Assembly (NCBI GenBank): GCA_963965975.1
Contig: OZ014411.1
Span: 26,522,249-26,586,248, forward strand
Origin: Xestospongia bergquistia
Lineage: Eukaryota; Porifera; Demospongiae; Haplosclerida; Petrosiidae
Direction: 5' to 3'
Length of the DNA stretch: 64,000 nt
Under the pieces are notes generated by a model. It was given only the letters and a program-made list of their open reading frames with translations, ran no database searches and was not told the origin of the DNA. The translations under genes and the position numbers were made by a program. Below are positions 13,771-44,455 of this stretch, one piece after another (the first letter of the stretch is position 1; each line of letters opens with the position of its first letter).

Positions 13771-13875
13771 GGCCAACAGACTCCTCTACATGCAGCACTT
13801 ATTTACAGTCCACAACCACAACATATAATACAAGTACTATTAGAGGCTGGTGCCAATCCAAACTCAACTGATATG
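13771..13875 (+). CDS. Ankyrin repeat exon 1 (of those visible)
   Basis: Phase-0 exon of 35 codons between ATTAATTTAG and GTAAGTG. It reads as one ankyrin repeat, with the TPLHAAL core and LLEAGANPNSTD end typical of the repeat's two helices and beta-hairpin. It begins mid-array, so further ankyrin exons are expected upstream of the window. Confidence 0.85.
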
Positions 13876-16800
13876 GTAAGTGTTAGATAGTAATGAATAC
13901 TGTTTTACTGGATTATATAATATTATATAAAACAGTTAATTAAGTAATAGATCAATATATTTAGTTATTATAATGATGATGATTACTTTTGGTTTTACTC
14001 TAAATGCTTTGTATAAATTTGATAACTCCACCCTCTTTATGATTAAGTAATAACATGTACACTTGACTATAGTACCTTCTCTTATATTGTGTAAAGTGTC
14101 TATTTGTCTCTTTATGTATAAGAAATGTTTTAAAACATCATTTATTGAACATGGCCATGTACAGGAAACATTTTGAAATACTCTTAAAAAGCAGCTGTCA
14201 ACAGCATCTGCATTTTCATTATGCTTTTTAGAGGTACCTTATCAAGTCATATAATATTATATAAAACAGTTAATTAAGTAATAGATCAATATATTTAGTT
14301 ATTATAATGATGATGATTACTTTTGGTTTTACTCTAAATGCTTTGTATAAATTTGATAACTCCACCCTCTTCATGATTAAGTAATAACATGTACACTTGA
14401 CTATAGTACCTTCTCTTATATTATGGAAAGTGTCTATTTATCTCTTTATGTATGAGAAAACATCATTCATTGAACATGGCCATGTACAGGAAACATTTTG
14501 AGATGCTCTTAAAAAGCAGCTGTCAACAGCATCTGCATTTTCATTATGCTTTTTAGAGGTACCTTATCAAGTCAAGAGTTAGAGAAAAGGTTTTTTGTGT
14601 GCATTAATTAGAAAGTACACTTGTTTTTGTTTGCCTAAAAATTTGGAGGGTGTACTCCAACTCTTTTAACAACCTTAAAGTGACATATCTTGAGCTATCA
14701 GGTATTACTTTAACTATGAGCTCACCCACATAATCAGGTATTATTTAACCACAAAGTAAAATTTGCTACTTTGATACCTGTGTCATTGGAAGAGTTGAAA
14801 GTCTATTTTGGCTTAATAGTCTGATGAGTATTATACACCTACCATTGATTATTGGAAAATGTCCTTTTCTAAATTATTCTCCTGTTTGAGATCAAATCAC
14901 TCGTGACTGTTTCTCTGTAATTAGTGATATCTATATATTTTTTAATAAACTTCTCACTCTTCAATCCTTGTTAAAAATGGTATTTATGTGCCTGTTAGAT
15001 CCCACAGGAAATTGGATTTCCTGAGACTTTAAATATAATGATACTAGAGGCTTAGATATGAGAGAAGACAATGAGATGTTACAATCTAAAATATCACTCA
15101 ATTTAACTGTAGCATGGCAGCAGGACACAAAAGTTGTCACTGCTTGTGTTACCAATACCCAAACTTAAAAGTGCAAAGAAAACTAAAAACAGGGAAAAGG
15201 TTACTGTGATGTGTCCAGAGACAATTGCCTTATACAACTGACATGGTGTGTTTGGTATGAATTGCATAATTAACACCCTCTTTTCATTGATCACTAATTA
15301 AATTCTGACAAAACGAGTTTAGTATATACGTTCCCCAGGTGCTTCCTCTCTATAAGCGAAGGTGACATCAGACTAATCACTTATATCACTCTAGACACAG
15401 TATAAGCTGTGGTTTATCACTATGTAATAGTGGTATTAATAAATATACTTATACTTCTGTAAAAAATAGATGTTATGCTATTGTTTTCAAGTATGCCTTT
15501 TTATCTAGCTTCATTTACCAGAATTATTTACTAGAACTATCAAATATCATAAACAAAAATCAATACTCTTCACTTTCATTAAAGTCAAAGTCTGTAATAC
15601 AAGTGTCAAAACTATCAGTTTGTTTATTACATCCTTACTACCCACTTTAAAAGTTGTTTAGTGTGTTTTTGAGTTGTCATCTCTAGATCTACTCTAGCAC
15701 CATGTTGAAGCTACCGTTATTTCTTATTATAGAGGTTGCACCTTCCATAATTAATAATTGTTACGAATTTATTAATTTGTGTGCATGAATTAGAATACAT
15801 ATATATTACAATTACAGATTACAGTCTAGCAGTGACAGTATAATATAGGTATTTACATTCAGCTGCAAATATACAAGGTGTAATCAGTATAATCACATGT
15901 CCTTTCATGCATCATTTCATAAATAAACATCAGCAGATGCTAACACAAGCAACATGTACTTGTTCCATGTACTACTTACAAAGGCTACTGTAATTGCTGT
16001 AATCACTTGTGATTACAGCAATTACTTTGTCTGATTATAATTATGATTACTGATTACATTATTTCTGGAAAGTCGATTACGATTGAGATTACAGCAAAAA
16101 ATGTAATTGATTGTAATTGATTATGATTGTATTCGGTCCCAACCCTGCTCAATAGAAAAGCCAGTAGTGAGTCTGTCTACAATGTTAGTTCTTAAAATGG
16201 CTACTTAAAGATGACCTACTCACTTTCAAGTGTCACAGAAACAATTATAGTATTCAGTTACTAAACAGTCAGAACTATTTTAATCATTCAATGTTGTATG
16301 CTTGAGCACACCATACTTTAATGTTGTTGAAATTTGGCCACAGGAAACATTTTGAAATGCTCTTAAAAAGGCAGCATCTGCCTTTTAGTTTGCATTTTAG
16401 AAAAATGCACTAAAACAACAACAATAATTATGAGTTTCTATGTTTATCACTACATCTACTGATACACTTCAAACAATATGATAAATAAAATGTAGTACAT
16501 AACAGACTTTTTCTTACATCTCCAGTCAGTTTCTTTGAAATCAGATGATATCTTTACATAGTAGATAACTTTCTCCACCAGGTACTGAGTCATATGATAA
16601 ACTGTAATGTGATCTACCTGTTATCACTCATTTACAATCCTCACTGTTGATGCAGTGTTGACGAAGCTATGGTACTATATAAGAGAAGATCATCTCTAAA
16701 GCAGTACATGCCCTTAAAACTTGTTAAACAAAGGATAAAGATATAGGTACATGTGGATACCATAAATGGCTATGTGTCTGAATGTCATTTTTACATAGCT

Positions 16801-22800: not shown

Positions 22801-25800
22801 GGGTCCAATATAATGATAAATTGAAGTATTACAAAAACCCACTTAATTCAAATACATTGATTGATATGGTCAATTATCAATTAAAACATGAAAAGTCTTT
22901 TATTAGGATTTTGATCATTTTATACTTTTTTATAAATATTGATTAATATTACATTGAGTATAATTATCACTGGATACCTGTGTACCCTTGACACACCCTG
23001 GATCAGTCCTTAGTGATCGTAATCTGTCAGTATAGGTTTTGTAACAAGATGGAGATCTCCATGGTATTTATAAACTGAGTGCTGATATCATGAGGTTTAT
23101 AAATGCTATAGAAACCTTAAATTTGTTATAATTATAACTAACTGACTTCTGTTAAGTATCAACAGTATCATAGTAACTTGTTTATATAGTAATGCTAATA
23201 CTATAAAAGATCTTACTGTATGAGACATAATAGAACAATCTAATAAGACAACTGGTAATTGAAAGCAAACTTTTAATGATTTGTGAATCTCAAGTAAATT
23301 TCTGTGACCCACTTTTTACTGTCACCACCATAAGATAGAATTTGAAAGTAGAGTTATGTGGTTTGGTGAACTTAGTAACCACTTGGGCCCATTTTCTATA
23401 TGACCTTTGGAATAACCAAACATGTTTTATGTATTTTTAGTATTGGTTTGGTGTTAAAGTTTTTGTCTTGCTTGGCAGTATATAACAGAATATTTCATGA
23501 TTGACGAGTCTGTCTCATATTTTGAGAGAGCATATTTAGTAGGGAATTTCCCTATAGATGGATGTTTACAACACAGATGGTCCAAGAGCAAACAATCATG
23601 TTGAAGGATGGCATAGTTGTCTTAAGTTGTTAAGAAAGTACATCCTAACATTTACAATGTGTTGAGGTATTCCAAAAGGAACACGCTGCAACTGAATTCT
23701 CATTACTTCAAAGTTAGTAGGAGTGCCTCCACCTTGTTGTACGAAAAGGTCAATTCTTTGAGACTGTAAAGTTAATAAACTAAAAGAAAGGTTTACCAAT
23801 AACAGTATATGTTAGGCTGAATATGTTACAGACATGTCCATTCGTACAGATCGTTGACTTAAACTTTACATATTATTATTATTATACTTACTAATGTACT
23901 ATATATAATTATCGACTATTACTGTAAATAGCTAATTTCATTGTTAATATTAGTTTGGAGAGCATTAAATAGAATAAGCTAATAATAGGTGAAACATACA
24001 AATTATGCTTTTAGTAGGTATAAATGGAGTAAGCAATCCTTCTAAACAAGCTTTTACTGTTTAATTTTTGAATTTATTAATTAATAAATTCAAAAATTAC
24101 ATGTATATCACAGATAAAGTGTTATCATCAGTTCAATCTATCTGATATTTTATCTGTTTTCATTAATTAAAGTTACCAAAATATTGAGTCAGTTAGTAGT
24201 ATTAGCAATCAAAGCCTGTAAGATTGACCATACCCTTATGAATAATTAATTTATTAATAAGAATATTTTGAGCTGAAATTTTCACAATGTCTTATAATCC
24301 TATCACAACTTCTTTGTTCCACTATCTCTACTTTAATTCTGGTTGTTTAATATTTGTATATGAAGTTAGTAAATATCCTTTATAATGACAACATTATAAA
24401 TACAAGTATTAGGTACCATAACATGTACTTTACAAAATTACATATTTGTCTCATTTAATACTACATCAGTGCTTTAGTATTTGTTAGAGAATCACTTTAT
24501 ACACTCAAGACAATTGAACCAGATTATAGATGTAGCTATTGTTAATAATGACTGTTCTTTTATTTCAATCTTGTTATATACTAGTATTGTTTACTAACAT
24601 ATACAGTAATTGAGACTGTATTGTTAATTTTATTCTCTTACATCCAGATCAATGAAACTCCATTGCATTGGGCAGCATATAAAGGTCATCATGATAGTGC
24701 TGATACTTTACTTAAATCTAGAGCACATGTTGATGCTATTAATAAGGTCAGTATATACTATAATGTAAACTTATTATAGTTATAAACTGGTTATTACACA
24801 TACCTTCATATTTTCAAAAGTATATAATAAATTCATACTTTCTTGTTTGTTTTAAATGACAAAAACATATACATATAAGTTATAATTTGATGATAATGAT
24901 TATGATCAGAAAACATTCATATCCTGAAAAGTCAACCTTCATATCAATTTCCTTTCTACTTAAATATATCCATCAGTATCTTTTATGACACTAGTAATAT
25001 TATATTAACAAAATTAAACATGATAATAATGACAAATTACACTGGATAATGTCCCATTACAAAAATGACTATCTTTTATAAAATTCAATTCTCCACATTA
25101 ATGCTAGATACATATACAATAGTTGTAGAATTAATCATTTTATATCACATGATATCTATATTTGTATGTCCATTGACTTTGTTTATTCTTTTGTCTATAT
25201 ATGACAATTAAATATTATAATTAATGTAATAACTGCATACTTTAAATGCTGACATACAATAGGAATCAATGACTTTAATTAATTGTGACCACAACTATAA
25301 TGGATGTTACCTTCAAGTTTTGAAACTAGCTTTTTCCTGATCTATTAATTAAGTTTTATTTCTAGCATTTTACTTTATAGTTACTTCAATTGTTTCATTT
25401 AATTATTTTTACAGTAGTCAGTATCTTCCAAACAATTATAGGACAATATTTCTTAATTATAATCTTTTTAGGTATGTGTTAATTATATAACTGTGTTTGT
25501 TTGTTTGTTTTACATAACAACTAACAGCATTGAGTAAATTAAACTAAATACTTTAACTTCAGATACATTATGTCAGCCAATAAATTTAACTTGTCTCTAC
25601 GTCAAGTGCTACAACAATAGATATGACTGACAATGATTTAAAACTTCTAGTACATAATATAATTGTTATAGTGGAATCTCCTTGATCTGAATTCAAAGGT
25701 TTTTAATTGTTAATAAGTGCAACTTTATTTTAGCTTAACTTTTAAATAAAAGATACCTCTGTAATCAGGACACTTTAAACTGGTCCCAATTTATTTGTTT

Positions 25801-28800
25801 AGATAAGAAAAGTTTCACTTTAAATATTTTATTATAGCAAGACCCCTCCAAGGGGACACTTCAGTCTGAAATTTGAATATTCATACTATTTTGGACATTT
25901 GTTTAGACCCAAGACTCATAATAACTACTACAATAGTAACTGATCCCCTGAAATACACCCCCCACTGTTACATAATTAGGACAGTTTGATAAACTGTTAT
26001 ATCTCTTATTAAACACAAATGAAAACAACTCAATACTAGCACAGAACTGAATTAAGGACAACTATACAATTGCTTAAATATCCAATGAATACTTACAAGT
26101 ATAAGTCCAAAGTATACAATTAATACAATAGTCCAAAGTACATAATCAATACAGTTTATTACAATTTCTCCCCTCCTTAATCAAAGAACTCGTCAGCAAA
26201 ACGTTGAGGGGGTCTCCTCACTCTTGAGGGATAACGAGGACCTGTACTGATTCGAAGTTCCGACCCTTGTCTTGAATCAGAAGACTCAACTTGTGGATTG
26301 GACTGAAGAGTCATTTCTAATTCTGGAATATTATCTGACATACGAACTCGAATTTGATTTTGATGTCGTTTAACGATCATGGTTGAGTTTTGCAATCGAA
26401 CTCCAAAAACAACTCTACCAATCTGTTTCACTATGACTCCAGGTATCCATTTAACTTTACTGCCCTGTGAGAAATTCCAAATGTACACATCATCTCCTCT
26501 TGAGAATTTTCGCTCTTTAGCAGATCTATCAAAATACTTCTTTTGTTTGTCTTGTTTCTTGAGAACTTTCTCCTGTACATTAGAATGTAGTAAATCAAAT
26601 CTACTGCTTAACTGTCATCCAAACATTAGGTCTGCCGGAGATTGACCTGTAGTACTATGTGGAGTTATTCTATAAGAAAACAAAAATTGAGCTAATTTTG
26701 TATCTATTGCACCACTTGCTATCTTTTTCATCCCCTTCTTGAATGTTTGTACCATTCGCTCTACCAGTCTATTAGACTGCGGATGATAAGGAGCTGTCTT
26801 GATGTGTTGAATACCATTAGCTTTCAAAAAATCTTCAAATTCCTGACTTGTAAAACATGTCCCATTATCTGATACTAGAGTACGAGGCAATCCATAACGA
26901 GTAAACATTGTTCTCGTAACATTTGAATAGTTGCTGTAGAGGTTGTAGACGACGTTTTCATGATCTCTACCCACTTGGAGTGTGCATCTGTCACTATAAA
27001 AAACATAGAATTCATGAAGGGACCAGCATAATCCACATGCACTCTGCCCCAGGGTCTAGTTGGCCATGTCCATGGTTCTAATGATGCCATTGCAGGATTT
27101 GATTGCTTTTCCTGACACTTTGCACATTCTTTGACCAACTTCTCAATATCCTTTGTCAAACCAGGCCACCAAAAATACATTCTTGCCAAACTCTTCATTC
27201 GATTCACTCCTGGGTGTCCCTGATGTAACTCTGCTAACATTTGTTGTCTACCTTGAGATGGGATCAGAACTCTAGAACCATAAATAATGCATCCATTTAA
27301 TGTTGACAACTCCAATTTATGCTCTCTGAATGATTTCAAGTCTACTGAACAATGTTCTGGCCATCCAAACTGAACATACCTGTATACTCTGGCTAATAAA
27401 GGATCTTTCTGTGTCCACTCTTTTACAGTTTCTGCCATGATTGGCATTGTGTCCATGGCTTCCATTAACTTCACCAATTCGGTTGGTACTGGTTCTTCTA
27501 CCTCTACATTCTCAGTAGGAAGTCGACTCAATGCGTCTGCGTTGCTATCCTTATGAGTAGGCCGAAAGGCCATCGTATATTCATAGTTAGTCAGGATCAA
27601 TGCCCATCGTTGTATTCTACCAGCTGCTTGTACTGGAACTGGCTGCTTCTCATTGAACAAGGACTTCAGAGACAAATTATCAGTGTACATTAAGAACTTG
27701 TGTCCAAATAGGTATGAATAAAACTTTTTTACTGCAAAAAAATGCAGGCCAGACCCTCTTTTTCAAGTTGTGAATAGTGTTTTTCAGATTCTGTTAAGGT
27801 CCGTGAAACATAACCTATTGGTTTCTCTGAACCATCTGTCATATGGTGAGCGAGAACTGCACCAATCCCGTACATAGAGGTGTCACATGACAAAATTAAT
27901 GGAAGAGATGGATCGAAATGAACCAGTAAATTTAATGATGTAAGGAGTTTCTTTGATTCTTGAAAAGCTGACTCTTCTTCTTCTGACCATCTCCATTGAG
28001 TGTTCTTCTGGAGCAACCTATAGAGAGAAAAGAGATGTTTTGAGATATTAGGCAGGAATCTACCATAATATGTCAAAAGACCCAGATAAGCTTTTAATTG
28101 GGTGAGATTTTTGGGAGGAGGAGCTTCCAGAATTGTGCCAACTTTATCTTGTGTTGGGTGTAATCCCTGAGAGTCGATAATATGTCCAAGATATGACACA
28201 GACTTTGCCATGAATACACATTTTTCTCTTTTCAACAACATCCCCACATCCTCGATTCGCTTCAATACTGTCTCTAGTGATTTCAAATGTTCCTCATCAT
28301 TCTTTCCAGTAATAAGAACATCATCTATATATACAATCACTCCCGGAATATTCTGAAGTAGACTTTCCATAACTCTTTGAAAAATGGCCGGGGCTGATGC
28401 AATACCAAATGGTAGTCTCCTATATCGGGAATAACCCCTTGTGTGTGTTAATCACCGTATACTGCTTGGAGACTTCATCAAGTTCCAATTGCTGATATGC
28501 TTGGCTCATGTCCAACTTCGAAAACAGCTTGCCTCCACTGAGTGTGGCAAAGAGATCCTCAATTCTTGGAATCGGATGACGGTCTAACTTTGACACTGAA
28601 TTTAATGTGACCTTGAAATCACCACAAATTCTGACACTACCATCTGACTTCAAAACTGATACAATGGGTGATGCCCATTCTGAAAACTGTATTGGTTCTA
28701 AAATACCCAATGACATCAATCTGTCCAGTTCTTTTTCAATCTTTTCTTTTATAGCATATGCAACTGGGCGAGCTTTCATAAATTTTGGTACAGCCTCTTG

Positions 28801-31800
28801 CTCGACATGTATTTTTGCATTATATCCTCTGAGATGTCCCAGACCTTTTCCAAAAACATTCTGATGTTTTGCTAAAATATTCTGCAATTTGTCATTACCG
28901 ACCATGTGAATACTCTTCCAATCAATCCGTATATATTGAAGCCAGTTACGACCAAACAAGTTTGGACCGTTTCCTTTGATGACTAATAATGGTAGAATAG
29001 CACCCTCTTCCTTATATTTAACTTCCACACTACAGCTACCCAATGGCTGTATCTTCTCTCCTGTATAAGTCCTGAGAATTGTTGTCATCTTTTGCAATTT
29101 CTTCTTGGAATATAATTTAGACCATGTGGCCTCTGAGATCCATGACACTGACGCTCCAGTATCCAGCTCCATGTTCACTAGCTTCTCCTCAATGTATACC
29201 TCCAGTTCTATTGCATCCTCACTCTTGCCTGAATGTTTTATAAATTCTTCAAGGTCAAGTCCCTCCCATGTTCTTGCAATTATGTCAACTGTCTGACTGG
29301 TCGTGGCCTGTGGTTTCGTCTGCTTAGATTTCTCTGGCCCAGCAGGGAGTCTATCAGACCTTGGGGGACCACTTCTACACACCCGTCTGTATGTGGCCAG
29401 TCTTACCACAAGTCAGGCACTTCACATGTCGAAATCTGCAACGATCTGGAGTATGGCCGCTATTTCCGCAACGGTAACAGTTCGTGGTAGTAACTTTGTA
29501 TACCTCTGTCGGTTTTTGTACAGGGGTTTGTAGCTCTGTCACGTTCTTCCTTACACTTTCCATGCCCACAGCAATATCCAATGCTGAATCCAAGGTGAGT
29601 GTCTTCTCTGCCAACAGTCGTCGTTGAATGTTTTCGTCATTAATGCCACATACTATTCGATCTCTCAATAAGTCATTCAATGATGCACCAAATTTGCAAT
29701 ACCGAGCTAGAGAACGTAGTTCAGCCACAAATGTGCTCACAGCTTCCCCTTCGTGCCTAATTCTCGTGTGGAAGCTGTAGCGTTCCACAATATCTGACAG
29801 TGCCGGGTTATAGTGTTCGGTTAAGAGCGTCACTAGCTCTTCATAACTCTTCTCTCCAGGTTTCTGAGGGCTCTCCAGGTCAAGAGCTTGTAAGGTGCTG
29901 GTCCAATTGCTGATAAAAGAACAGAACGCTTTTTGTCTACGAAGTGTCTACTCGACCGGTACCGGTTCGCATAATCAAAACCTTAAACAACCGGTTCCGG
30001 TAGACCTGGGACTGTAAATAGAGCCGGGTAGTGGCCACACCCATTACCGACGATGATATACAAAGAATCTACCGACGAGTTATAACTCGAAAACAATAGA
30101 TCATTGTTGCAATGTTGTGTAAATTAACAATGTGTATTTTAACAAATAATGTAGTTGAAGGTGCAGTTATTTCTTGTAACAGTCTCTACAGAACCAGTGC
30201 TTTGCCTTTGGATTTTGTTTTAGCCCAACACATTTCATGTGATACCAACTAAGGCAATGATCACAAACAATAGCAGGGAACTCATTTAGGTCATGCTGGC
30301 AAGTCTTGCAAGTATAAACTGAATTTTTCTTCTTCCTGGTTACCACATTCTGAACAAGAATCCAAGCATCGTTAGAGAAGTAATGACGGACAAGATTAAT
30401 GTTGACATTCTCATCCAAAACAGCGTCTGGAAGCTTCTCAGGTAATACTTCTACACTTGTTTCTTCAATCAGATTTTTGGGGTACTTCATTACAGCAGTC
30501 ACTTCTTCTTTGTCAACGAACCACCCCAAAATAACTGCAACGATAATAGTCAGCACTAACAAAAGGCCAAAAATAAGTACCTTCTTCTTTTAATGATGTA
30601 TGTAATTTCAAGAATGGAAGAACTTTGTCACACTTTCATCTTTTAGGAAGGCCAATAACAGTGCTCTCATGCCCTTTAGGTCTTCCTCTTTTGCGAATTA
30701 TTGGAGGAAGTGATATATCTAAATAAATTAAAATAAATAAATACTACATGTTGTACAACTTATACCTTTAAGGGATACTTGCTCCTTCTGAATCCTTGCA
30801 TCTAGGTCAGGAATAGAGATCTGGTGTATTTTGATTCAGCAAGACAAATCTGGGAAATGGTTTGGTTAATCCCTAAACATACAATACAATACAAAACACA
30901 TTATAGAGCATTACATACACTTTTTAAAGCTGTTGCTGTTATTCTTCTGTTTGTGGTTTTTCCTTTACAAAGATTTTACACATCAAATCAAAAGATGTAC
31001 TGCTTACCTGCCATATTAGTTGAGGAGCCTAATGGTGGCAAAACATCTAATGTACATGTAGCTAATAAAACTATAAAACTGGTAAATAAATGACTGTTGC
31101 TCTACCTCTTGAATGACATGTATGATCCACTTCCATCATACTGCTTTCTTCCTCCTGTGCAGTAGCTAAGATACACACTAAAGATTAACATATTCAGTAA
31201 TACGTTGCCAATACTTTGTTCCAATTGCCCTTCATTTTCACCAGTACTTGTTGTCAATGGTGAATTTGAATTATGATTCAACGGCCCAATCACACTAGTA
31301 CCAACCGATGTTTGTGCATTTCCATCTTCTAATGTTAATGCAAATGTACATTGTGTTACAGTATATACAATTCTATACATTATTCATTGTTATTGTTAAT
31401 TATTGTTCCTATATATTAATACTTATTTTCATTACTGTTATTCATTATCATTATTATTATGTAATCATTGCACTAGTGAGTGAAACTCCATGCTTTAACA
31501 ACATATTAAAAATGTAGCTTAACTGAAATATGGCATATTATACATGAAACTAACCTAGTACATTAAATTTCTCCCCATTCTCCCAGACAGCAATTATTCT
31601 CTTCAGAAGATCACACCGAGAAGTGAACATCTCACCAGTACTTTCAGAAGCAAGAGAAGCTAGTGTTGTAATGATCTTTGAAACATGGCGAAATTTGTCT
31701 GCCTATTCAATACAATTATCATTGTCAATACATACCAACATACATGTATATACTTGAGACATTGGGCGTTTCGAAGATACAGGTAAGTCAGATATAGTAA

Positions 31801-34800
31801 CTGCAGGAGAATCATTCTCAACTGTGACAGAGCTGCTACTTCGAAAGATGCGTTGATTTTCTTTGTAATATTTAAAAGACCATCGTACGTCACACAGCTC
31901 TTCTGCAAAAAGATCTACCTCCAGTCTCTTTCTAAGTGCAAATATGTGCTTGCAGGGTAACTTCATGGATATCCATGACATACAAGTGCAGCTTGTGGTA
32001 GAAACATTGAGTAGACTTCACTCGAAGTAACTTCGTAGTATTCGTGACCATCTTTCAAGGTACTTGTGATATTTACTTTATCTTTCAGGTCTATTTGCTT
32101 TTTCACAAACTTAAAAGCATACTCTGTCAAGTGGTCAATGTATTTTACAATGTTTTCTTCATTAGTGGAATGGTATGTCACAGGGACTTTTTGGGCTACA
32201 AGAGCAGCCTTGTGGTCACGCTCTGATCTAAGAACTCGAACGATTAAAAAAAAATTCTGAATAAATGCTTCCAGTGACGAGTATCTGGACACAACGGACT
32301 TCAACTTATCATTTAGACTTTCTAAACGATTATTGTTGTGTTAAGAAAATTCCCAGAGTTGTACTTCATCCCCATAGTCCATAGTTCCCTGATTGGGTGC
32401 CAGTTGCTATTAAAGTACTCTAAAACAGTGGAAGGTACGGAATCACAAAAACGTGAGTATATCTCTTGGTACTTCTCTACTGAAGTGGAGTAAGCTAATT
32501 GTTGTAGTAGTTCCAATGACATATTCCGCTGCCCAGCAGTAATCCCCATCTTCTCAGTTGTAATTTCACGCCGGAAGCTTCTGAAAGTATGAAAGAGGCA
32601 AATCTGTAATGTTGCAGATGGAAAACAACAGGCTAAAACATCTCTTTGGCTCAAATCTTATCGCCCATGAGCACACAAATTGATTTCCAGTTGGAATTTC
32701 CTTCTTAAAGAAATCGATCATATGAGACATGGATTCTTCTGTCTCCTCCAGCATTAGAAACACTGCAGCTATTTCACTTAGCCCGTTTCCATCTTCTACT
32801 AGTAAAATATAGACAGGGAAGCGTAACTCGAGAAGCTTATAAGTAGCATCGATGCAGACAAATTCTGGATATGCGGCAAATATGTCCTTCATTTCCTGAT
32901 CCTGGAAATAAATACCTTTCAGTACTCTCGAATCATTCATTACTATTTCTACACAAGCACCTATAAGTAGTGTTAAAACATCACCATAATACATATAAGT
33001 TAAGTGAATGCATGACACTTACCATAAGTATCAGTAAGTTTCTCAACAGATGCTTCTAAATTGTTTTGAGTACTTTTGTTTTGCAAGGAACTTTGTAAAT
33101 TGGTTATGTCCTTCAAAGTAACAGCTTTTCTTGTTTCTTGAGAGAGCTTATGTTGTAGAATCTTCTTGTTAGCTTTTACATTCAAGAAATTCTTTGCTCC
33201 TTTCTTCTCGGAATCGCTTAGTTTTCTTTGACGAGGAAGATGCTTAAATAATTGCTGAAACGACAATATTATTAACTGAATTACAATACTCACGCTGTCT
33301 TACCTTATTGATTGCATGGGTGTGGTCCTCTATTATTTTTTCAAAATTAATCTTTGACCATCCTCAGATGCACGAAAAGAAACTAATGCCGGACTCATTA
33401 GCTCTTGGTTCAAAATTGGGGGAGCTATCGCTCAAAATCGCACTCACTGCATCGTCCCTCGTTTCAGCCATTGAGATTGCACGTGGAGGGTGTGGCCACC
33501 ACCCGGCTTTCTATTTACAGCCCCAGGTCTACCGGAACCGGTTGTTTAAGGTTTTGATTATGCGAACCGGTACCGGTCGAGTAGACTTCGTTCCACATAC
33601 TGGTCCCACGGCTCCAGCATAGCATCAAATTCTCGTAGTCTTCCCAGAACACCTGCCATCTCACCCTCGTCGCCAAATGTTATATCTCTTATTAAACACA
33701 AATGAAAACAACTCAATACTAGCACAGAACTGAATTAAGGACAACTATACAATTGCTTAAATATCCAATGAATACTTACAAGTACAAGTCCAAAGTACAC
33801 AATTAATACACTAGTCCAAAGTACATAATCAATACAGTTTATTACATAACAAAAGCAATACTTTTATAAAACTTTGAAAGAGTGAAAACATTGTTCAATT
33901 ATTTTAAGTATGATATTAACAATTGCTACAAATTCATTTGTAGTAAGAATATTCAGGTATTATTAATATCAACACACACATTTTAGCTAAACTATTCGTT
34001 ATAGCAGTTACACTGGATTACTTCTCAGTTTATAAAGAATCATGTCATACAACAAGTACCATATACAGGTTCATCTGTTGGAGTAACTTTAACTTTCTTC
34101 AGACAAGTACACTTTCATCAATTTTTAGAAAACATTTTGAAGAATGTATCTTGACTACTAGAGCTGGTAGATTACTTAGTAACAGTTACAACTTGAGAGT
34201 TCATGTCTCCAATTAGTTGTGGAAGTAAACAGATATATATGTCAACCTTCCCACCAACACAACCAACACTTCATACAACTAATTAGTACCATTACCTGTA
34301 TATAATGTCTGGATAAATTCTCTCTTTATTACTTCAAATGTCAGTGGTCCTCCATGTATATTGTCACACTCTGCAAGGAAACATTCTAAGGTTGGGAAAT
34401 TGATTTGAGTTTTAGATTTGCAAGTGCTTCTTGAGCATATTTGATATATAAGTTATTCACCAATTCTCTATAATGAATAAGTTCATCTTAAGCATCTATT
34501 ACTCTTTAGTAAAACTAATAAAGTATAAACACCTTCACAATCATGATAAAACATACACGAGATCTTCGAAATTGAGATTGTACATACTTACCAGCTATTA
34601 ATAGTCCTGAGAATATGAGAGTTTAATTTTGTTATTGCAGGAGCATAAATGTAAGAAAGACATATAATAACAAGAGTTGTCATTAAAAGCAATCTAAAAT
34701 AAACAACTACATGGAAACATCTTCTCATGAAAGGAAGTGGTAGAGTATAGGTATGTTTTGTGATTGCTCATTTTTGACATTTGACTCATGATAACATGAT

Positions 34801-37800
34801 GAGCTGATTTCTTACCATCCAGAAAAGAGGAAAGGGGCTACAGAGAATTGGCATATTTACTGAATCTTCTTTTTTATGTTTTCCTTTGTATTTGATACAT
34901 CTTCTGATGAGTACCATTTACACACTATGCTGTTAAATTGCTTTAAATAATAAAGTCCCTTACTGATTGCTAAATAAGATATGTTTGGATTAGTAAACAA
35001 TGAGAGGCAAATATTAAGATTCAGTGGTGTGGGTTACTGATTATCAAGAAATACTCCAAACTCTCATATTTGCCCCATATCAATTCAATATTTAGTGAGA
35101 CCAACCCTTAGCTTAATGTACTGCCAATATTATAAATATTATAACATGGACATTGTTCATACCACTTATGTTATATGCATCTTGAGTGTCAGCATCCAAT
35201 TTTTTTTAACCTCACTCTCAAAATATTTGTCACTGCTATTTGTATAGTTTTCTTTCAGTGAAGATATGTAATGAAAAAAGGTCTTTAAATGAGTTAGAAA
35301 GTTTGTGTAAATAGTATCTAGCAACTAGTGTTCTTGTAATTATGTAAATTTAGGTATTCATATTATAGTCTTTGTATTTAGGGTAAGATAATTACTCTAC
35401 TACAAATATATTAAATGATCAATTTGATGTTAATCCTCTTAGTTGTTGTGTTTATATTCTAAGGGTTGATACCATCATCTAAATATTAAAGATATTGCTA
35501 ATTAAAACAAGTTCTAGTGAAAACAAATTTAAAAGAGCTGTACATATGTTACACTTGAATCAATTGGTTTTATAACAATAACAATTTAATCTATTATTAG
35601 TATCTACCCTCATTATCATTGTATATGTGATTACTGAATCAGTTGAAATATAAGAAAGAATGTGACAAGTACTTTTCAATAAGAAAATATTACTGCAAAA
35701 ATAAAATATTGAAAATATTAAAATGTTATATTAGTTGAATAACTTTATATTCATTAAGATATTGTCAGACTGTAAGACTTGAGTCTCCTGTATTGACTAA
35801 TAAGACAGTGACTGCTTGAGTATCATTGTGTGCTCAATTTCACATGATATATATAATTAGTCTTTCTTTCAATATAATATCATTGATTGTTAATATTTTA
35901 ATGTTATCATTAGTTACCAATGTTACTAAATTAGGACCGGAATTTAAAAAATCATTGCAATATAGAATTTGTTTGCTATTATTAATAATGATCAGTTAAT
36001 TGCATATCTCAATTTCTGAAACGTCTTGTCATTGTTTGTTTTTTATTTAACAAGTGACTTACATGTAACAACATTGAAATATTATGTTGTTTTTCTTTAG
36101 AGTGACTCTTAATACTTTTATTTACATATTGTAGTACTATATGACAAGTCTTGTATCAATTAGGACATGTTTATTTATGTATACATCTCAAGTATATAGT
36201 AATAATATATCATTTCTGTTAGTTTCATTACTTTTACAATATAAAGCTTTATCTCAAATTCTGTTTCTTTATATAGTTTGGCGATTCTCCTCTACATTGG
36301 GCTTGCAGAGGCGGTCATGTCAATTTTGTCAAGCTCTTACTCTCTTATGGTGCAGATCCATCAATAATAAATAATGATGGAAAAACTCCTGCTGAGGAGG
36401 TCGAAGCTGATAATGTTAACAGACAAATAATATTGGAAGCTCTACAAAATGCAAAACAAGGTATATAGATTGTTTATATTTATATTATGTGATGATAACT
36501 ATCAATTGTTATGTTAATATCATAAAGAGTTATTATTGACAAAATACATTAAAACATTGTTTAATTCACTATATTATAATATGATGATACATATAATTTA
36601 TGTGTACTCCTCTGTTGAAAGGTAATGAGTATGTTTATGAGAAATATTATTCCTATAACATGATAATTCATTTTCAATAACTATATACTAAGATAAATGA
36701 TGAATTAGAACTAGACATAAAACAACAATAACAATGACTGTTGACCAGAATGCTATGACAACTGTCAACTCACACTCTCTAATTATCAAAATTAATATTC
36801 TAAGCATAATTTGGAGACATACACTAAAGCCTTTTATCAATTATAAGATATGGTTATGATTTTTGTAGCAATTACACAGAATTCATTGTTTATACTATGT
36901 ACATAGGTGAGATGTCAACAATATAATGAAGTTCTCATTGTATATAAAACATATCTCTTAATGTACAAACAGACATTGTAATTGGTTGATTATAGACTAC
37001 TATGTTTTTTGCTTCATTGACTATTTATATCAGCAAGTAACTCAGACTCCTCTACAATATGTTTGTAGATAGTATTAGCCAGCTTGTTGTATATCAAGTA
37101 TTGATTCTAAGAATAATTTGGAGACAAGTATTAAAAGCTTTTTATCAGTTATAAGTCACAGTTATCATTGTAACAATCACACAGAATAGCTAACCTTTTT
37201 AAACAATGTTTCTGTAACATGGAAACAGTTTACCATGTATGTGACCTTGTCTGCCATAGAGCTAACACCATATTATCTGAAAAGACATTAAATTCTGTCA
37301 ATATTTCCATTACAACAATTAGTTGGTCTATATTCATTGCTATAGTCTTATTGTTAGAGCAATGTTACTCATCATTATAACTTAATATATTAAATTATTA
37401 ATGAATTGTGTTCAGTTTACATCACTTTTTTATTGTTGTATAATATTGATATAGAATTCCACAAGTATACACAGCTCTTATTTGATTTGTTCATAGTTTG
37501 TTTTACATAGTTAGATGGAATTATTAGGCTTTGTATTAGGCATTATCAGATATCATTAATAACTTTATACTTCATTTATAATGATTCTCTTAGAAAATAA
37601 ACAGTGTGACCTAAATCAATAACAATGGAATTACAAAAATTATGACTACTTTTTGTATTCAATTTACTAATGACATATACTAGTATTATGGGAAATAAAT
37701 TTAATAGAAGGACCAGTATGTTTATTGTCTTTATTTATACTTCTTTCTTTTCAATAGATTATTCCGGTGTTTTACATAAAGCACTCAAGGAAGGCCATGT

Positions 37801-40800
37801 CAAAGCAAAGTGGTCAAAACTTGCTACATCAGGAGCACCTGCAACTGGAAAGTCTTCAATTATAAAACTTATCTTAGATGAACCTCCTCCAGAAGAACAC
37901 CATAGTACTTTAGCAGTCACTGCACCAGAAATAAGGAGGGTTGGTACAACTGGTTTTATAGCTGGAGGTGAACCAGACAATTCTTCTAATCCAATATGGA
38001 ATAAAGTAAACCCACACTCAGTCAAACAAATGATAGCCAAACAAATAAAACATGGAGTTGATTCTTCTCCAAAAACATCTGCAACAAAAAGTGGAGGTGA
38101 TAGTGAATCTTCATCCTCATCTGACGATGACGGAATACTATCTGGTACTACAAAGGACATGTTACAGTTAAAAGATGTGCCTATTTCACTACAACAATCA
38201 ACACCTAAGCTTGTATCTCCTGCTACTAGTGAAATTGTTAAAATCTTGCCAACTGTAGAGAAGTCTCCTGAACTCTATCAGTCACACTGGGTTTACGTTG
38301 TAGATTCAGGTGGTCAAGCAGCCTTCTTAGACATAGCTCCTGCATTGCTACGACATAACCCAGTTAGCATACTCACCCTAAAATTAAATGAGAAGCTTGG
38401 AGATAGGCCCAAATTTTATTTTAGCTTTAAAGGTGAGTTGATTGGAGAGCCAGTGGAACGCCAGATCACCAACATGCAACTTCTTGAATCATCGTTTCGT
38501 TCACTAGTGTCAACCGATCAACCTCATTTGCGTAATATCCATATCAGATGTTCTTATGACAAGCCTTCCCTTCTGGTTCTTGGTACATTCTATGATAAAG
38601 TGGATGAGTGCAAAGAAGAGACTTTAGATCAGAAAAATGCAGCTCTGTGGTCAACTTTAAGCAAATTCCGTGATGTGAGGCTCAATTATAGTGATGGTAA
38701 AAAGAAAGTTATTTTTCCTATTAACACAATTGCCCGTGGTGAGCCCGAACAAGAAATGGCTAAGTTTATTCGTAATGTTGTTTGCCAGTCTTACATTGAA
38801 GCTATCATACCAGCTCGATGGTTCTTGTTTAATCTGGATCTAGAAGAGTTTCAAAAAAAGAATGGGTCAATGGTTGTAAGCAAAGTACAGTGTTTGAGGA
38901 TTGGAGAAGCACTAATGATGGAGCCTATAGATGTTGACTCAGCACTCATGTACTACCATGATCTGACAGTTTTCTTGTATTTCCCTAAAGTCCTCCCTAA
39001 TGTAGTGTTCTTACACCCACAACCACTATTCGATAAGTTGTCTGAGTTAATTAGTATTTCTTTTGCTGATGCTGTTGACCATTTAAGGAAAATGAATATT
39101 ATTCTACCTGCTGATGCCCACGATCAACTTAAGAGTGAAGGTACCTTTACACGAGATATTTTAGATTGTCTCTCAGAGGGATTTATTGCAGAGTTTACAG
39201 CTGATGATTTTTTAAGATTAATGGCAGATATTTTTATTATTGCACCTCTACCAGAAAAGGGAAAATTTTTTCTTCCCAGTGTCCTCCCAACGTTAGATAA
39301 CTTAGAGAAGATTAGAGGTCCATTCTTAAGAAACACGGACCCTCTGGTTTTGACCTGGGAAATGAAACCACTCCCTCAAGGTGTCTTTCCTGCTCTTGTT
39401 GTTAATCTCCTTAAGCGACAAATCTCACCAAGTTTCGATCTCTATCGTCCCATTGAATTAAGTGAAGAATCTCTACAATATCGTAATGCTATCCAACTAG
39501 CATGTCTTGACCTAGGAGGTGCAATTCTCTTAGTAGATGCCATTTATTGGCTGGAAATATATTATTCTGGGCTTTCTACAAGGTGCTCTGCTATTTGTTG
39601 TTCTGTTATGGAGGGTATTAATGCAGTTGTGAAGAAATTCCAGTATAAGCCAATTCTATCAATTCCTCAGGAACGCTTTCTCTGCTCAATTTGTCCTCCT
39701 CCAAGAAATCATCTTTGTCGTCCAGATGAAGACAAGGAAACGCTTACTTGCTGTCGAGATGGCAGGTCACTAGTGCCAATTGATTGTATACGACAGTACC
39801 CTTGGATTGATTGTGTATCTACAAAAGACATTAAATTACAAGGTAATTAAAAATTGATATACTTGTTTGGTATAGTCTATAGGATGATGTATACAGCTAT
39901 GTATAAAGTATAATGTAAAAACACTGTTTGAATAGATGTATAAGAAAGTGTTAATTATATTAATGGTTAGATAATAGTACATAAGCTTTGAAAATTGTTG
40001 TTATAAACAAACTACAGTGACTTGTGTTATACTGTACCAGCTTTCAAGTGAAAGGTCACACTCGTTACTAGCTCCCTTCTTTTTTCAAGGATATGGAATA
40101 ATTTATCTAATGCAGAATGAATTGTCTGTCATAAAAAGTGCTTATTGCTTGTTCTTGTGTTAAGTATATCAACAATCACTTTGGACCAGTTTTAAGTCCT
40201 CTGAGCATAATATTGTAGGATAGGTCAATATTATAATATTTCCAAATAATCATTATTGAGTCTTTTTATGGCTAGTAAAAGATCAGAAAGTGTTTCTAAA
40301 ATGAAGAACAGGTACTACTATCTAAATAGACAAACTCTTCTTTCTTCTCCACTAGCAAGCTATCGCATGAAGCAACATTATGTGGTTGCCTAATTGTAGT
40401 TCAGTACAGGACTTGCGCATTTGTCATGTGTAGTCACTCTAACCTTGAACAGGTTCTTGTTATTATCATTTTACCACTGTTATCTGATACTACTATCAGT
40501 ACAGTGACTATCACTTTAGTCTGGCACTATGGAATAAAAAATGTAAAAAAGGATATAAATAAGTATGATAAAATTGTTTTTAAGAAAATAAAAGCAACAT
40601 ACAAACTGTAAGGATAGCATTACCAAAAAGTGTAGAAACAAAATACATTGATTAATGTACAAATCAATTCAAAAATATTATAAGTAGCCAATCCTTTTAA
40701 GACAAGAATGATTGTTAGCTACAATTTGACTGTTAAAAAGTTGATATTTTGAGAAGTGTATATGGAGATGAAAGCATGTAACACTAATTGTAATTAACTA

Positions 40801-41647
40801 TTGCTATATGGGTTTGTCCATTCATTTCTACCGTCTTTCTATATTTTTGGCATTTCTATTCTGACATTGTCTTACATTTTGTTAAAATGAGATTTATGAT
40901 ACTAGCAACTTTTAATAGATAGATTGAGGACTTGTACTAACACATGATAACCACATTGACATATATAATTATATATACATGTAATATACAAAATCATTTA
41001 AACTTTAAAGTTATGAAATAGTGACATTATTACAAAATATGATTTTTATTATAGACATTGCTCAATTACTGAAGAAAGAACCCAATCTCACTGATCTCCT
41101 TACTCTGTTAGCTGATATTGAATATGAATGGCACAACATTGGTATTGCGCTTGAAGTCAAACAAAGTGTTTTAGAGAGTTGTGACAGAAGCAGTAAAGAT
41201 GATCGCTACAAGCTTTTTAAAGTTATCAAAACTTGGACAACTAGCATGATTAGTGAAGTTACATGGCAAGCTATCATTGCTGCAGTCGAGAGCCCTATTG
41301 TCAATCATAAGTCAACTGCAGTTAAGATGCGTATGTTCTTAGCAAAACCTGAGGTGCGTATTAAGTATGAACAGATGAGTGACGTCAGCCAAACATCTAA
41401 TCATGAGGTGGATCCTAAACATGAAGATGCGACTGATGTTGTCCAAACGTCTGAACATGAGGTACATCTTGAACATGAATGTACAACTAACATTGACCTA
41501 ATGTCTGAACATGAAGTGCGTCCTAAGCATGAAGATGTGACTTTCATCATCCAAACGTCCAGCCAAGGGGAGCGACCTCAATCAGCACGCATGAGTGATG
41601 TCGACCAAACATCTGCACCAACTAAGAAGAAATGTCAAATCTTATAA
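13771..41647 (+). CDS. Ankyrin-Roc-COR-death domain protein with CaaX box (5' part outside window)
   Basis: Five exons with matching phases can be joined: 13771-13875, 24648-24746, 36277-36460, 37758-39842 and 41055-41647. They give 1,021 codons of open frame plus a missing N-terminus to the left. Order: ankyrin repeats, P-loop GTPase, COR-like region, death domain, acidic/His-rich tail, CaaX box. The combination ankyrin + ROCO GTPase + death domain is that of animal DAPK1 without the kinase, so a signalling scaffold or switch in cell death or innate defence is likely; this is inferred from domains. The terminal KKKCQIL predicts prenylation and membrane attachment. The first two introns are about 10.8 and 11.5 kb and are filled with mobile elements, in contrast with the short introns of VPS18 and ABCB8. 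A kinase domain could still lie upstream. Confidence 0.8.
13916..14577 (+). repeat. Tandem duplication, two units of about 333 bp
   Basis: Bases 13916-14248 and 14249-14577 are near-identical, both beginning ATAATATTATATAAAACAGT and ending ACCTTATCAAGTCA. The unit lies wholly in the intron after the ankyrin exon. A short part of it (ACAGGAAACATTTTGAAAT onward) recurs at 16340-16395. Confidence 0.85.
14905..15275 (+). mobile_element. piggyBac-type DNA transposon relic 1
   Basis: Short stretches in shifting frames match the piggyBac relics at 16652-17022 and 21700-22109: first the region equivalent to LLKDGIYVPVRPHRKGFPES, then a part equivalent to VTVICSGTITLYNKYMGGVD. Frameshifts and stops throughout show that it cannot encode transposase. 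It carries the middle of the transposase gene between the second and third catalytic aspartates. Confidence 0.65.
15748..16336 (+). repeat. Block A fragment, copy 4
   Basis: Matches about 1962-2550 of block A, with a small deletion near the left end and scattered substitutions. It shows that a piece of the array sequence also exists outside the array, so the block includes a dispersed repeat. Confidence 0.75.
16652..17022 (+). mobile_element. piggyBac-type DNA transposon relic 2
   Basis: The frame reads VDEAMVLYKRRSSLKQYMPL, then after an in-frame TAG where the family has Trp, DTINGYVSECHFYIAKE, GLGERVVNDLTRKLAG, YHIYCDIFYKLLTLS and LLKDGIYVPVRPHRKGFPES. The family's first catalytic Asp (in VDEAM) and the second (in CDIFY) are both present. 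It ends at a stop after LNIMLLEA, which is where relic 1 also has a stop. No terminal inverted repeats were identified. The piece is a truncated, inactive copy. Confidence 0.8.
17041..17510 (-). mobile_element. LTR retrotransposon fragment (3' end with probable LTR)
   Basis: On the minus strand, 17510-17380 encodes a segment resembling the extreme C-terminal end of Ty3/Gypsy-type Pol (LLYQVQDPSG, HQINHLRYHH). It is followed by a purine-rich tract and then TGTGATGAAC at about 17192, as expected for a polypurine tract and the start of a 3' LTR running to about 17045. Only this end is present; it is a broken, older copy. Confidence 0.5.
17728..19135 (-). CDS. Multi-exon gene of unrecognised repeat-borne family, copy 2
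   Basis: Minus-strand exons can be followed with plausible acceptors and donors: 19135-about 18770 (starts MTACQDDFSFSIIVEAVTGS, has a leucine-rich coiled-coil-like stretch), 18531-18442 (ADSKTNRAIFDAIKAELSSF), 18391-about 18320 (AIHHHFESSKHSDRESTAIG), 18215-18113 (FMTDENDRDGAIALHPLPWR) and 18070-17728 (FMRKLDERHQQKKQSPWIKS, then a Pro-rich and acidic tail). The acidic segment before PLPWRS and the exon order match the broken copy at 4212-5580. No catalytic motif is visible and function is unknown. It lies in the intron of the ankyrin gene, on the opposite strand, among transposon relics. Confidence 0.5.
19540..20640 (+). repeat. Minisatellite interrupted by a MULE element
   Basis: Units of roughly 50-57 bp with the core TCATCACCCATATAATTACA and TGTACACAAACTAACATAGT run from about 19540 to 19778 and resume at 20503-20640. 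The interruption is the 724-bp element at 19779-20502. Confidence 0.75.
19779..20502 (+). mobile_element. MULE DNA transposon remnant with 8-bp target duplication
   Basis: The element is flanked by TGTACACA on both sides (19771-19778 and 20503-20510). Its ends are imperfect inverted repeats of about 40 bp sharing TCTAACAAAATG. Inside, 19961-20260 encodes FVPTAFVRLVWSGLQ and GPRTNNNAEGWHSKMKKL, typical of the C-terminal part of MULE-type transposases; the frame then breaks, and another frame ends in LQELLMAHSHWVSL. The catalytic core is missing, so it is a non-autonomous deletion derivative. Confidence 0.8.
20511..20950. other. Intronic sequence after the MULE
   Basis: The first 130 bases belong to the minisatellite; the rest has no recognised feature. 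Confidence 0.4.
20950..21700 (-). mobile_element. Ty3/Gypsy-type LTR retrotransposon fragment
   Basis: Minus-strand frames match Pol: a stretch between RNase H and integrase near 21700-21600, integrase core pieces (SKWIEAHIV), the integrase region MGLAERPVQTFKQG, and the C-terminal part (FKVGDRLYACGF). No LTR was found at either end. It is an old fragment, broken several times, and abuts the piggyBac relic at 21700. Confidence 0.7.
21700..22109 (+). mobile_element. piggyBac-type DNA transposon relic 3 (C-terminal end)
   Basis: Contains VTVICSGTITLYNKYMGGVD then CNDQL, the family's third catalytic Asp motif, and after frame changes a cysteine-rich tail, CSQYKHICKDTKWYCEDC followed by NVYLCDNG and a stop after CFYPP. 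That tail corresponds to the family's C-terminal zinc-binding domain. Together the three relics cover most of the transposase, but each is separately dead. Confidence 0.8.
22110..23550. other. Intronic sequence, nothing recognised
   Basis: A 119-codon open frame at 22324-22683 has no recognisable similarity or splice context and is treated as chance. Confidence 0.4.
23555..23790 (+). mobile_element. MULE transposase relic
   Basis: The plus strand reads DVYNTDGPRANNHVEGWHSC followed by LKLLRK, then after a frame change NIYNVLRYSKRNTLQL, parallel to the fragment at 20150-20260. It is a second, unrelated insertion of the same superfamily. Ends were not identified. Confidence 0.65.
23800..24647. 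other. Intronic sequence with a short perfect palindrome
   Basis: A palindrome TTTTTGAATTTATTAATTAA and its reverse lies at about 24065-24098. Nothing else was recognised; the stretch ends in the acceptor TTACATCCAG. Confidence 0.5.
24648..24746 (+). CDS. Ankyrin repeat exon 2
   Basis: Phase-0 exon of 33 codons, exactly one ankyrin repeat (TPLHWAAYKGHHDSADTLL, HVDAIN), between TACATCCAG and GTCAGT. The one-repeat-per-exon layout and phase 0 match the exon at 13771. Confidence 0.9.
24747..25994. other. Intronic sequence left of the LTR element
   Basis: No recognised feature apart from TTTG-rich simple sequence near 25495. Confidence 0.5.
25995..26163 (-). repeat. 3' LTR of the Gypsy-type element
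   Basis: 169 bp; in element orientation it starts TGTAATAAACTG and ends AGATATAACA, with canonical TG and CA ends. Same length as the LTR at 33678-33846, about 98% identical. Confidence 0.92.
30167..30810 (-). pseudogene. AT-hook and PHD finger region of the MULE
   Basis: Minus-strand exons: IPDLDARIQKEQVSLK (about 30825-30770), then a basic AT-hook-like motif RKRGRPKGHESTVIGLPKR (about 30700-30645) followed by a stop codon in the same frame, and a long frame at 30562-30167 with YPKNLIEETSVEVLPEKLPD and a C-terminal PHD finger. The finger has CKTC, CDHC, WYHMKC and WFCRDC, the C4-H-C3 spacing of PHD domains. Most likely this is the C-terminal part of the transposase polyprotein, used for chromatin or DNA targeting; a separate accessory gene is possible. 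Confidence 0.65.
31575..33293 (-). pseudogene. MULE transposase with SWIM zinc finger (ZSWIM1/3-like)
   Basis: On the minus strand: an N-terminal basic region (RQRKLSDSEKKGAKNF, 33260-33010), the transposase core (FVCIDATYKLLELRFPVYIL, DGNGLSEIAAVFLMLEET), then SQRDVLACCFPSATLQICLF (32650), a downstream all-helical part, SNWHPIRELWTMGMKYN, and the SWIM finger whose recognisable end is SMKLPCKHIFALR (31975). A further exon (ADKFRHVSKIITTLASLASE) lies near 31710-31570. The order matches animal ZSWIM1/ZSWIM3, domesticated from MULE transposases. The frame changes at least twice around 32640-32690, between PTG/WKSICVLMGDK and LSQRDVL, so this copy looks inactive unless sequence errors are involved. 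The gene has short introns, e.g. around 31980 and 33000. Confidence 0.8.
33678..33846 (-). repeat. 5' LTR of the Gypsy-type element
   Basis: 169 bp, partner of 25995-26163. In element orientation it is followed directly by TTTGGCGACGAGG, the place for the primer binding site, and then by the start of the Gag region. Confidence 0.92.
33847..36276. other. Intronic sequence right of the LTR element
   Basis: AT-rich, without recognised exon or repeat. It ends in the acceptor TTTCTTTATATAG of the third ankyrin exon. Confidence 0.5.
36277..36460 (+). CDS. Ankyrin repeat exon 3
   Basis: Exon of 184 bases entering in phase 0 and leaving in phase 1 (CAA G, then GTATAT). It encodes one full repeat (SPLHWACRGGHVNFVKLLLS, GADPSIIN) and the start of a capping repeat (DGKTPAEEVEADN, then IILEALQNAKQ), so this is the end of the ankyrin array. 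Confidence 0.9.
36461..37757. other. Intron before the GTPase exon
   Basis: No element recognised. Two segments resemble each other, around 36780-36860 and 37105-37180 (both with AATAATTTGGAGACA-like words), suggesting a local duplication. Confidence 0.4.
37758..39842 (+). CDS. Roc-like GTPase plus COR-like region exon
   Basis: One 2,085-base exon, in phase 1 and out phase 1, after the acceptor TTCAATAG. It starts DYSGVLHKALKEGHVKAKW, then a Walker A loop GAPATGKSS (about 37832). A Ser/Asp/Glu-rich insert follows (SESSSSSDDDG, about 38100-38135). The G3 switch motif is DSGGQ (about 38303), and GTFYDKVDE (about 38584) stands where a G4 motif would be; no NKxD is seen. From about 38740 on the sequence is COR-like: IPARWFLFNLDLEEFQ, a helical stretch, LTVFLYFPKVLPNVVFLHPQ and PLFDKLSELI, patterns seen in ROCO proteins. 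Near the end, CSICPP, C, CC and C residues (39688-39825) may bind metal. The ATG at 37670 lies upstream of the acceptor and is not used in this model. Confidence 0.88.
39843..41054. other. Intron before the death-domain exon
   Basis: Parts of it are duplicated downstream: 40300-40345 resembles 42580-42640, and 40825-40890 resembles 44060-44140. No coding exon recognised; the 61-codon frame at 40426 is not supported. Confidence 0.5.
41055..41647 (+). CDS. Death domain, tail repeats and CaaX exon
   Basis: Last exon after the acceptor TTTTTATTATAG, phase 1, ending in TAA. The first 100 residues are a death domain: LADIEYEWHNIGIALEVKQ, then CDRSSKDDRYKLFKVIKTW, and VTWQAIIAAVESPIV. The tail carries about four diverged repeats of some 20 residues with QTS, EHEV and KHED words (QTSNHEVDPKHEDATDVV, QTSEHEVHLEHE). 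It ends KKKCQIL, a basic patch plus a CaaX box (Cys, two mostly aliphatic residues, Leu), as in Rho/Ras-type GTPases where Leu at the end favours geranylgeranylation. A diverged copy of this exon at 44225-44455 also ends in a CaaX box. Confidence 0.87.
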
Positions 41648-44012: not shown

Positions 44013-44224
44013 TATTATGCTCATACTAAAAAGTGTACAGTATTCCTTTATTATTATTTGTTCATTCATTCCTACGTTATTTCTATATTTTTTGACATTT
44101 AATTTCCTTTCTTATATTGCCTTTCATTTTCTTAAAATGCATGGAATGAAGCATTCTTGTAAAGTCTACTTGATAAATTTATGACATCCAATAAGACATG
44201 ATAACCACATTGACATACATTATA

Positions 44225-44455
44225 TGCACAAGCTCTATAAAGTGATTAAAAGTTGGACCACTACTATGACTACAGAGTACAGACATTACCTGGGATACCA
44301 TTATTGCTGCTTTGGAAGGTCCTATTGTCAAGCACAAAGCAACAGCAGCTAAGATACGAATGTTTTTAGCAAAACCTGAGGTGTTTTTGAAATACAAATG
44401 TAAGAAAGATTTTATCACCAAATCCACTTCTTCCAATAAATGTAACCTTTTGTAA
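44225..44455 (+). pseudogene. Diverged copy of the death-domain exon, frameshifted, CaaX kept
   Basis: The frame KLYKVIKSWTTTMTTE matches the death domain of the exon at 41055 (KLFKVIKTWTTSMISE). After a small indel, another frame continues TWDTIIAALEGPIVKHKATA and KIRMFLAKPEVFLKYK, ending KCNLL and TAA. The long acidic/His tail repeats are absent. The 5' half of the exon is missing and replaced by repeat DNA. It is probably a dead partial duplicate, but the new C-terminus is again basic plus CaaX. Confidence 0.7.

Follow-up and report, generated by a model that had tools for sequence, protein, structure and literature searches.

A ROCO-type GTPase gene that joins ankyrin repeats to a death domain and ends in a candidate prenylation box, in the sponge Xestospongia bergquistia

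We propose that a gene on contig C1 of the sponge Xestospongia bergquistia encodes a ROCO-type GTPase in which ankyrin repeats, Roc-COR and a death domain (DD) are followed by a flexible tail and a C-terminal CaaX box; this box would be prenylated, with the DD end held at a membrane, a reading to which we give a probability of about 0.6. The gene lies in the window, by which we mean the whole 64,000-nucleotide stretch that was analyzed (C1:26522249-26586248), and the genome searched comprises 146,460,797 bases in 21 contigs. In this explanation, the exon structure, the Roc-COR and DD homology and the placement of the CaaX-ended DD exons in one clade were computed; what we infer beyond them is transcription, splicing, prenylation, membrane location and a mechanism of dimerization and recruitment, the last being taken from ROCO and death-domain biology.

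Five exons on the + strand (Table 1) join into a product of 1,021 residues, which runs from three ankyrin repeats through Roc-COR and the DD to a repeat tail and ends in KKKCQIL, followed by a stop. The borders of the five exons are AG/GT, their phases match and there is no frame break in the joined model: the joins A-B and B-C are in phase 0, with the ankyrin repeats in a 33-residue register, and the joins of exon C to the GTPase exon and of the GTPase exon to the DD exon are in phase 1. The window yielded no first exon for the gene, and the model starts at ankyrin exon A. The first-pass annotation, which had been made from the letters of the DNA, listed ankyrin repeats, GTPase motifs, a COR-like region, a DD and a terminal KKKCQIL in one phase-consistent gene; all of these elements were recovered at their places, and KKKCQIL does end the last exon, with an AATAAA behind it.

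Table 1. Features of the gene model and of the DNA behind it, in window positions.
Feature	Position	Strand	Basis or remark
Ankyrin exon A	13771..13875	+	35 residues, phase 0 to 0; PF00023 at 13777-13872, 0.0045, 17.7 against a cut-off of 21.1 bits (below); 33-residue register with exon B
Ankyrin exon B	24648..24746	+	33 residues, phase 0 to 0; PF00023 at 24654-24746, 1.2e-5, over cut-off; AG/GT
Ankyrin exon C	36277..36460	+	Phase 0 to 1; PF00023 at 36280-36375, 2.7e-8, over cut-off
Roc-COR exon	37758..39842	+	2,085 nt, phase 1 to 1; paralog alignment, COR-A in paralogs, alignment with L072
G1 / Walker A GAPATGKSS	37832..37858	+	Sequence; alignment of 30 paralogs
G3 DSGGQ	38303..38317	+	Invariant in 30/30 paralogs
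G4-like TFYDK	38585..38599	+	T and D invariant in 30/30 paralogs; G4 by alignment with THGDK of L072
COR-A region, approximate	38806..39290	+	Placed from the COR-A match of paralog L030 and the paralog alignment
Terminal exon DD-a: death domain, tail, CaaX, stop	41055..41647	+	
Death domain as aligned in family alignment A3	41057..41383	+	PF00531 in relatives; hhalign
Hydrophilic tail, imperfect repeat of about 18 residues, Lys patch at end	41384..41632	+	Translation read by eye
CaaX box CQIL	41633..41644	+	Followed by stop TAA, 41645-41647
AATAAA	41714..41719	+	66 nt past the DD-a stop
Degraded second DD exon (DD-b)	44227..44455	+	tblastn pieces 44227-44277 and 44276-44452; also C1:26566518-26566694; stop TAA 44453-44455

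The gene belongs to a large family. The Roc-COR exon has at least 66 matches at no fewer than 64 genomic places (two of them split), and this count is a lower bound, with 64 of 623 first-look candidates scored; 59 of the 66 matches cover at least 680 of the 701 residues, and only 1 of these 59 has an internal stop. Nine of the places cluster at C1:26.49-27.15 Mb, and in each of the nine the Roc-COR exon is preceded by an exon C homolog and followed by a DD exon, both on its own strand; in the 27.06-Mb copy this DD is truncated. Because this order of exons is kept in 9/9 copies, it is disfavored that the GTPase exon and the DD exon belong to different genes, and the earlier assignment of both to one gene is supported. 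The cluster also holds an extra exon C-like place at 27072197, and exon A-like exons occur at ten other places in C1:26.45-27.15 Mb. In the 30 aligned paralogs, a phase-1 acceptor and, after the same region, a GT donor were read by eye from the listing. At L056, L059, L060, L066 and L016, two consecutive DD exons stand behind one Roc-COR exon, and these may be alternative last exons.

The GTPase motifs GAPATGKSS, DSGGQ and TFYDK all lie inside the Roc-COR exon. The P-loop Gly, Lys and Ser, the whole of DSGGQ and the T and D of TFYDK are invariant across the 30 aligned paralogs, and in the same alignment a long Ser/Asp-rich insert separates G1 from G3. By itself the window exon is too diverged for a Pfam match: neither Roc nor COR was matched at E<=1. 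A profile of the exon (A1) matched no ROCO protein in the PDB, and no Pfam Roc match was obtained across the 30 paralogs. Since these direct searches gave no Roc, we took a route through L072, an exon of another family in the same genome, which matches Pfam Roc at 2.9e-11 and COR-A at 1.2e-13, has a Pfam death domain (6.4e-10) 1.6 kb further on, and in the PDB is closest to LRRK1 (0.00022), with bacterial Roco 3dpu at 0.00072. In BLASTP the window exon and L072 align at 3e-22 (single comparison; 24% over 586 positions), and the alignment runs from before the P-loop to beyond COR-A. When profile A1 was compared with the pair of L072 and L071, the latter an LRR-Roc-COR exon matching LRRK2 at 1.7e-92, hhalign gave 98% for the part from G3 onward. 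The Roc GTPase is thus recognized through L072 together with the invariant motifs. The COR-like region is COR-A by Pfam in the paralogs, the window copy alone being without a match: PF16095 is found at E<=1 in 12/30 paralogs (best 3.7e-9), and when the genome was scanned, paralog exons scored above the cut-off, such as C11:6428402-6428884 with 40.6 against 35.3 bits. Judged by its sequence, the window gene is a predicted ROCO-type gene in which COR follows Roc, as seen through the paralogs and L072. In 12 pairwise comparisons of whole Roc-COR exons within the C1 cluster, dN/dS is 0.12-0.30, which indicates purifying selection. The single-sequence AlphaFold model of this exon was unusable (mean pLDDT 31.8).

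The gene had been called DAPK1-like at first pass. The layout of ankyrin repeats, Roc-COR and DD bears this out, and kinship with DAPK1 does not follow: the Roc-COR part is diverged, and no kinase was matched by Pfam at E<=1 on the + strand of window positions 1-37,742, where the three frames gave nothing beyond the three ankyrin exons. With no kinase upstream in the window, "DAPK1-like" therefore describes the layout only, and we set the kinship aside. A true DAPK1-type protein, with a kinase before the ankyrin repeats, Roc-COR and DD, would share its domain order with the DAPK1 group as presented in the cited passages of PMC6337361; it is nevertheless highly improbable in view of the missing kinase match, and also because the 5.8 kb upstream of a paralog on C9, searched with an ankyrin query (not Pfam), yielded ankyrin exons and because a caspase-like exon replaces exon C in a paralog on C12. 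From the DAPK1 group the window gene differs in its CaaX tail and in having no kinase found in the window, the likeness being one of domain order. The intron that separates ankyrin exon B from exon C contains, on the - strand, retrotransposon-like ORFs at 26177-29947 (reverse transcriptase, integrase and zinc-knuckle, by eye) and transposase-like ORFs at 31703-33299 (SWIM-like zinc motif, by eye).

The C12 paralog is L069. Its caspase-domain exon (L069:4631-5518, C12:5526030-5526917; PF00656, 3.7e-23) lies directly before the Roc-COR exon, and arrays on C11 and C12 hold 31 places that match it with an identity of at least 52%. Judged by eye, the catalytic residues His and Cys seem to be lost in this copy (SGG, IDINRR), and L069 would therefore be a pseudocaspase-ROCO-death-domain fusion. 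Ahead of the caspase-like region, weak CAP-Gly-like matches below the Pfam cut-off, divided between two exons, were noted at L069:3311-3586 and 4631-4740 (0.11 and 0.03). From L069:2401 onward there is a possible first exon, MGQRQSKQDQ, followed by a GT donor; we take this start to resemble an N-myristoylation signal, which would be a second possible membrane anchor in the family.

The DD was likewise recognized through relatives. The window DD exon alone gave no Pfam match, and PF00531 was found at E<=1 in 9/25 aligned DDs of the family (best 1.1e-5); compared with nine DDs of this genome, the family DD reached 91% in hhalign. These results agree with the death domain that had been read from the sequence. 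Against the PDB, the only matches up to E=5 were to four FADD chains, all weak (E 0.63-0.8), and single-sequence AlphaFold gave an all-helical but unusable model (mean pLDDT 47.7). The genome as a whole is rich in death-domain and ROCO exons, with at least 150 DD matches and at least 146 COR-A matches (150 of 171 COR-A candidates scored).

We then consider the C-terminal end of these DD exons. A strict CaaX end, C.[VIL][LM], closes 5 of the 38 family DD-exon tails: CQIL in the window (26.56 Mb) and in the 26.49- and 26.61-Mb copies, CNLL at 26.50 Mb and CKLM at 26.72 Mb. The 38 tails are those of the loci in hand, exons with a broken frame or cut at the end of a locus having been left out beforehand. 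In 60 single-base shuffles of the window DNA, 34 of 22,943 ORFs ended in the strict pattern, and the CaaX ends in the family tails exceed this chance rate. Real ORF ends of the window and the fetched loci gave 17/2,680, a rate above the shuffles from a set that overlaps itself and includes the family tails. A looser pattern (38/2,680 real and 161/22,943 shuffled ORFs) was set aside for the strict one. Among the nine genes of the C1 cluster, the motif stands directly behind Roc-COR and DD in four, and four have no CaaX in the exon read. All three tetrapeptides have Cys at -4, an aliphatic a2 and an accepted X at the extreme C-terminus, by the rules in the cited passages of PMC1175975, in which the first "a" is tolerant, the second is aliphatic, Leu or Met suits GGTase-I and the linker is hydrophilic. 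Human farnesyltransferase was the main enzyme prenylating CQLL and CKVL when both were studied in a yeast system, with CQLL about half by GGTase-I; the passages of PMC11152559 that report this do not name CQIL, CNLL or CKLM. Homology to prenyltransferase beta-subunits gave eleven matches at three places in the genome.

In a DD tree of 25 rows, the five CaaX exons group with the 27.08-Mb exon in a single clade, whose support of 92/93 is too low for the program to give it a star. Where the other members have Cys, the tail of the 27.08-Mb exon has KRKKY and a stop, which appears to be one loss of CaaX, and the history of the clade would most simply be one gain and one loss. Within the clade, DD-a has a long tail ending in CQIL and DD-b a short tail ending in CNLL or CKLM; the two DDs are about two thirds identical, and the tails, both CaaX-ended, could not be aligned by eye. 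A DD-b query reached the tail end at four places, all in the C1 cluster, among the best 150 of 965 candidates. In the window, DD-b has lost its first half and its frame is broken, and CNLL still ends both this exon and the degraded DD-b of the 26.61-Mb copy. The CaaX exon is separated from this degraded window DD-b by a long low-complexity repeat, open in three frames (42860-44150).

Among the recent DD-a copies, dN/dS was 0.88, 0.85 and 1.25 for the DD part and 0.42, 0.69 and 2.18 for the tail, and against the 27.08-Mb copy it was 0.6, 2.55 and 1.7, all on few changes; DD-a in these copies is thus evolving in a near-neutral, relaxed or diversifying manner, as far as so few changes tell. The values are 0.23 for DD-b between 26.50 and 26.72 Mb and 0.17 for DD-a against DD-b. 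The window and 27.08-Mb DD-a exons (41055-41455; L013/L042) are 90% identical over 407 nt and their Roc-COR exons have a dS of 0.50; the DD-a exon was therefore probably passed between loci, by exon exchange or gene conversion. This exchange, together with the near-neutral change, is what speaks most against a strict role of DD-a, and it is also what points most to a mobile terminal cassette.

Such evidence bears on whether the CaaX box is used. The gene could be an ordinary soluble ankyrin-Roc-COR-DD gene whose CQIL end is present and does not serve for prenylation, as is suggested by the absence of the motif from 33/38 family tails, by its loss in one member of the clade, by the near-neutral DD-a and by the strict CaaX at 17 of the 2,680 real ORF ends, family tails included. 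We regard this as unlikely, if worth keeping in mind, since the three mutually unalignable tails (CQIL, CNLL and CKLM) all retain Cys, an aliphatic residue and Leu or Met, the Cys being preceded by basic residues in CQIL and CKLM and by one Lys in CNLL. In addition, the last 20 codons carry no amino-acid difference in the three CQIL copies, although no pair differs by more than one silent change, which is too few for a test.

It is also conceivable that DD-a is decaying, or is one of several alternative last exons, and that the main product ends elsewhere. DD-b behind DD-a has a compatible phase-1 acceptor and is intact at C1:26500229, several paralogs have two DD exons in a row, and near-neutral change in DD-a would fit as well. 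This possibility appears quite small, because the three CQIL copies have an open DD-a frame, as does the 27.08-Mb copy as far as its earlier stop, because the window's second DD is frame-shifted and missing its first half, and because AATAAA follows the DD-a stop at 66 nt in all three CQIL copies; at four other exon ends checked, AATAAA is absent within 200 nt. Even so, a product that used DD-b of the 26.49-Mb copy would likewise end in CaaX.

Returning to the prenylated, membrane-held ROCO protein that we favor, we suggest a plausible mechanism. The ankyrin repeats would bind a partner and thereby sense it. Roc-COR would switch with the bound nucleotide and dimerize under the control of GTP, by analogy with the studied ROCO proteins in the cited passages of PMC6337361. 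The DD would recruit death-fold partners, and a prenyl group on CQIL would hold the DD end at the membrane; geranylgeranyl is most likely because X is Leu, and farnesyl is possible. GTP-dependent dimerization would then gather death domains at the membrane, where signaling would start. That such a platform would be permanently at a membrane, as the first-pass annotation had it, is an inference, the CaaX box being present in 4 of the 9 cluster genes.

How this compares with known proteins may be summarized as follows. With LRRK1, LRRK2 and bacterial Roco the window gene shares Roc followed by COR, but it is strongly diverged, has the long Ser/Asp-rich insert between G1 and G3 and ends in a DD and CaaX, and neither LRR nor kinase was found for it in the window. 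The cited part of PMC6337361 describes Rab proteins as the route by which LRRK2, the best studied ROCO protein, gets to membranes. The joining of ROCO to a death domain is not new, because ROCO genes of the placozoan Trichoplax, which carry LRR, TPR, CARD and death domains in the account of PMC11378527, already combine Roc-COR with death-fold domains; the passage there makes no mention of CaaX or of the presence or absence of a kinase. The new element would be the CaaX box: as far as titles and the starts of abstracts in the open-access literature go, we found no ROCO protein with one. The nearest analogy in working would be GBP1, GBP2 and GBP5, immune GTPases with a C-terminal CaaX according to the cited passages of PMC2998424, of which GBP1 recruits caspase-4 on the bacterial membrane in the passage taken from PMC13372814. 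Guanylate-binding proteins are another GTPase family, and the analogy is functional only.

If our reading is true, a ROCO protein that carries a prenylation signal of its own beside the DD would be a self-anchoring death platform, with a logic comparable to that of the CaaX-bearing guanylate-binding proteins. More tentatively, and at somewhat less than even odds, the CaaX-ended DD exons may be a lipid-anchor cassette that duplication of exons and gene conversion have carried through the ankyrin-ROCO tandem array of an immune-like receptor family that is expanding. Copies that share one GTPase platform could then switch between soluble and membrane-anchored death signaling through the gain or loss of one tetrapeptide or through alternative last exons.
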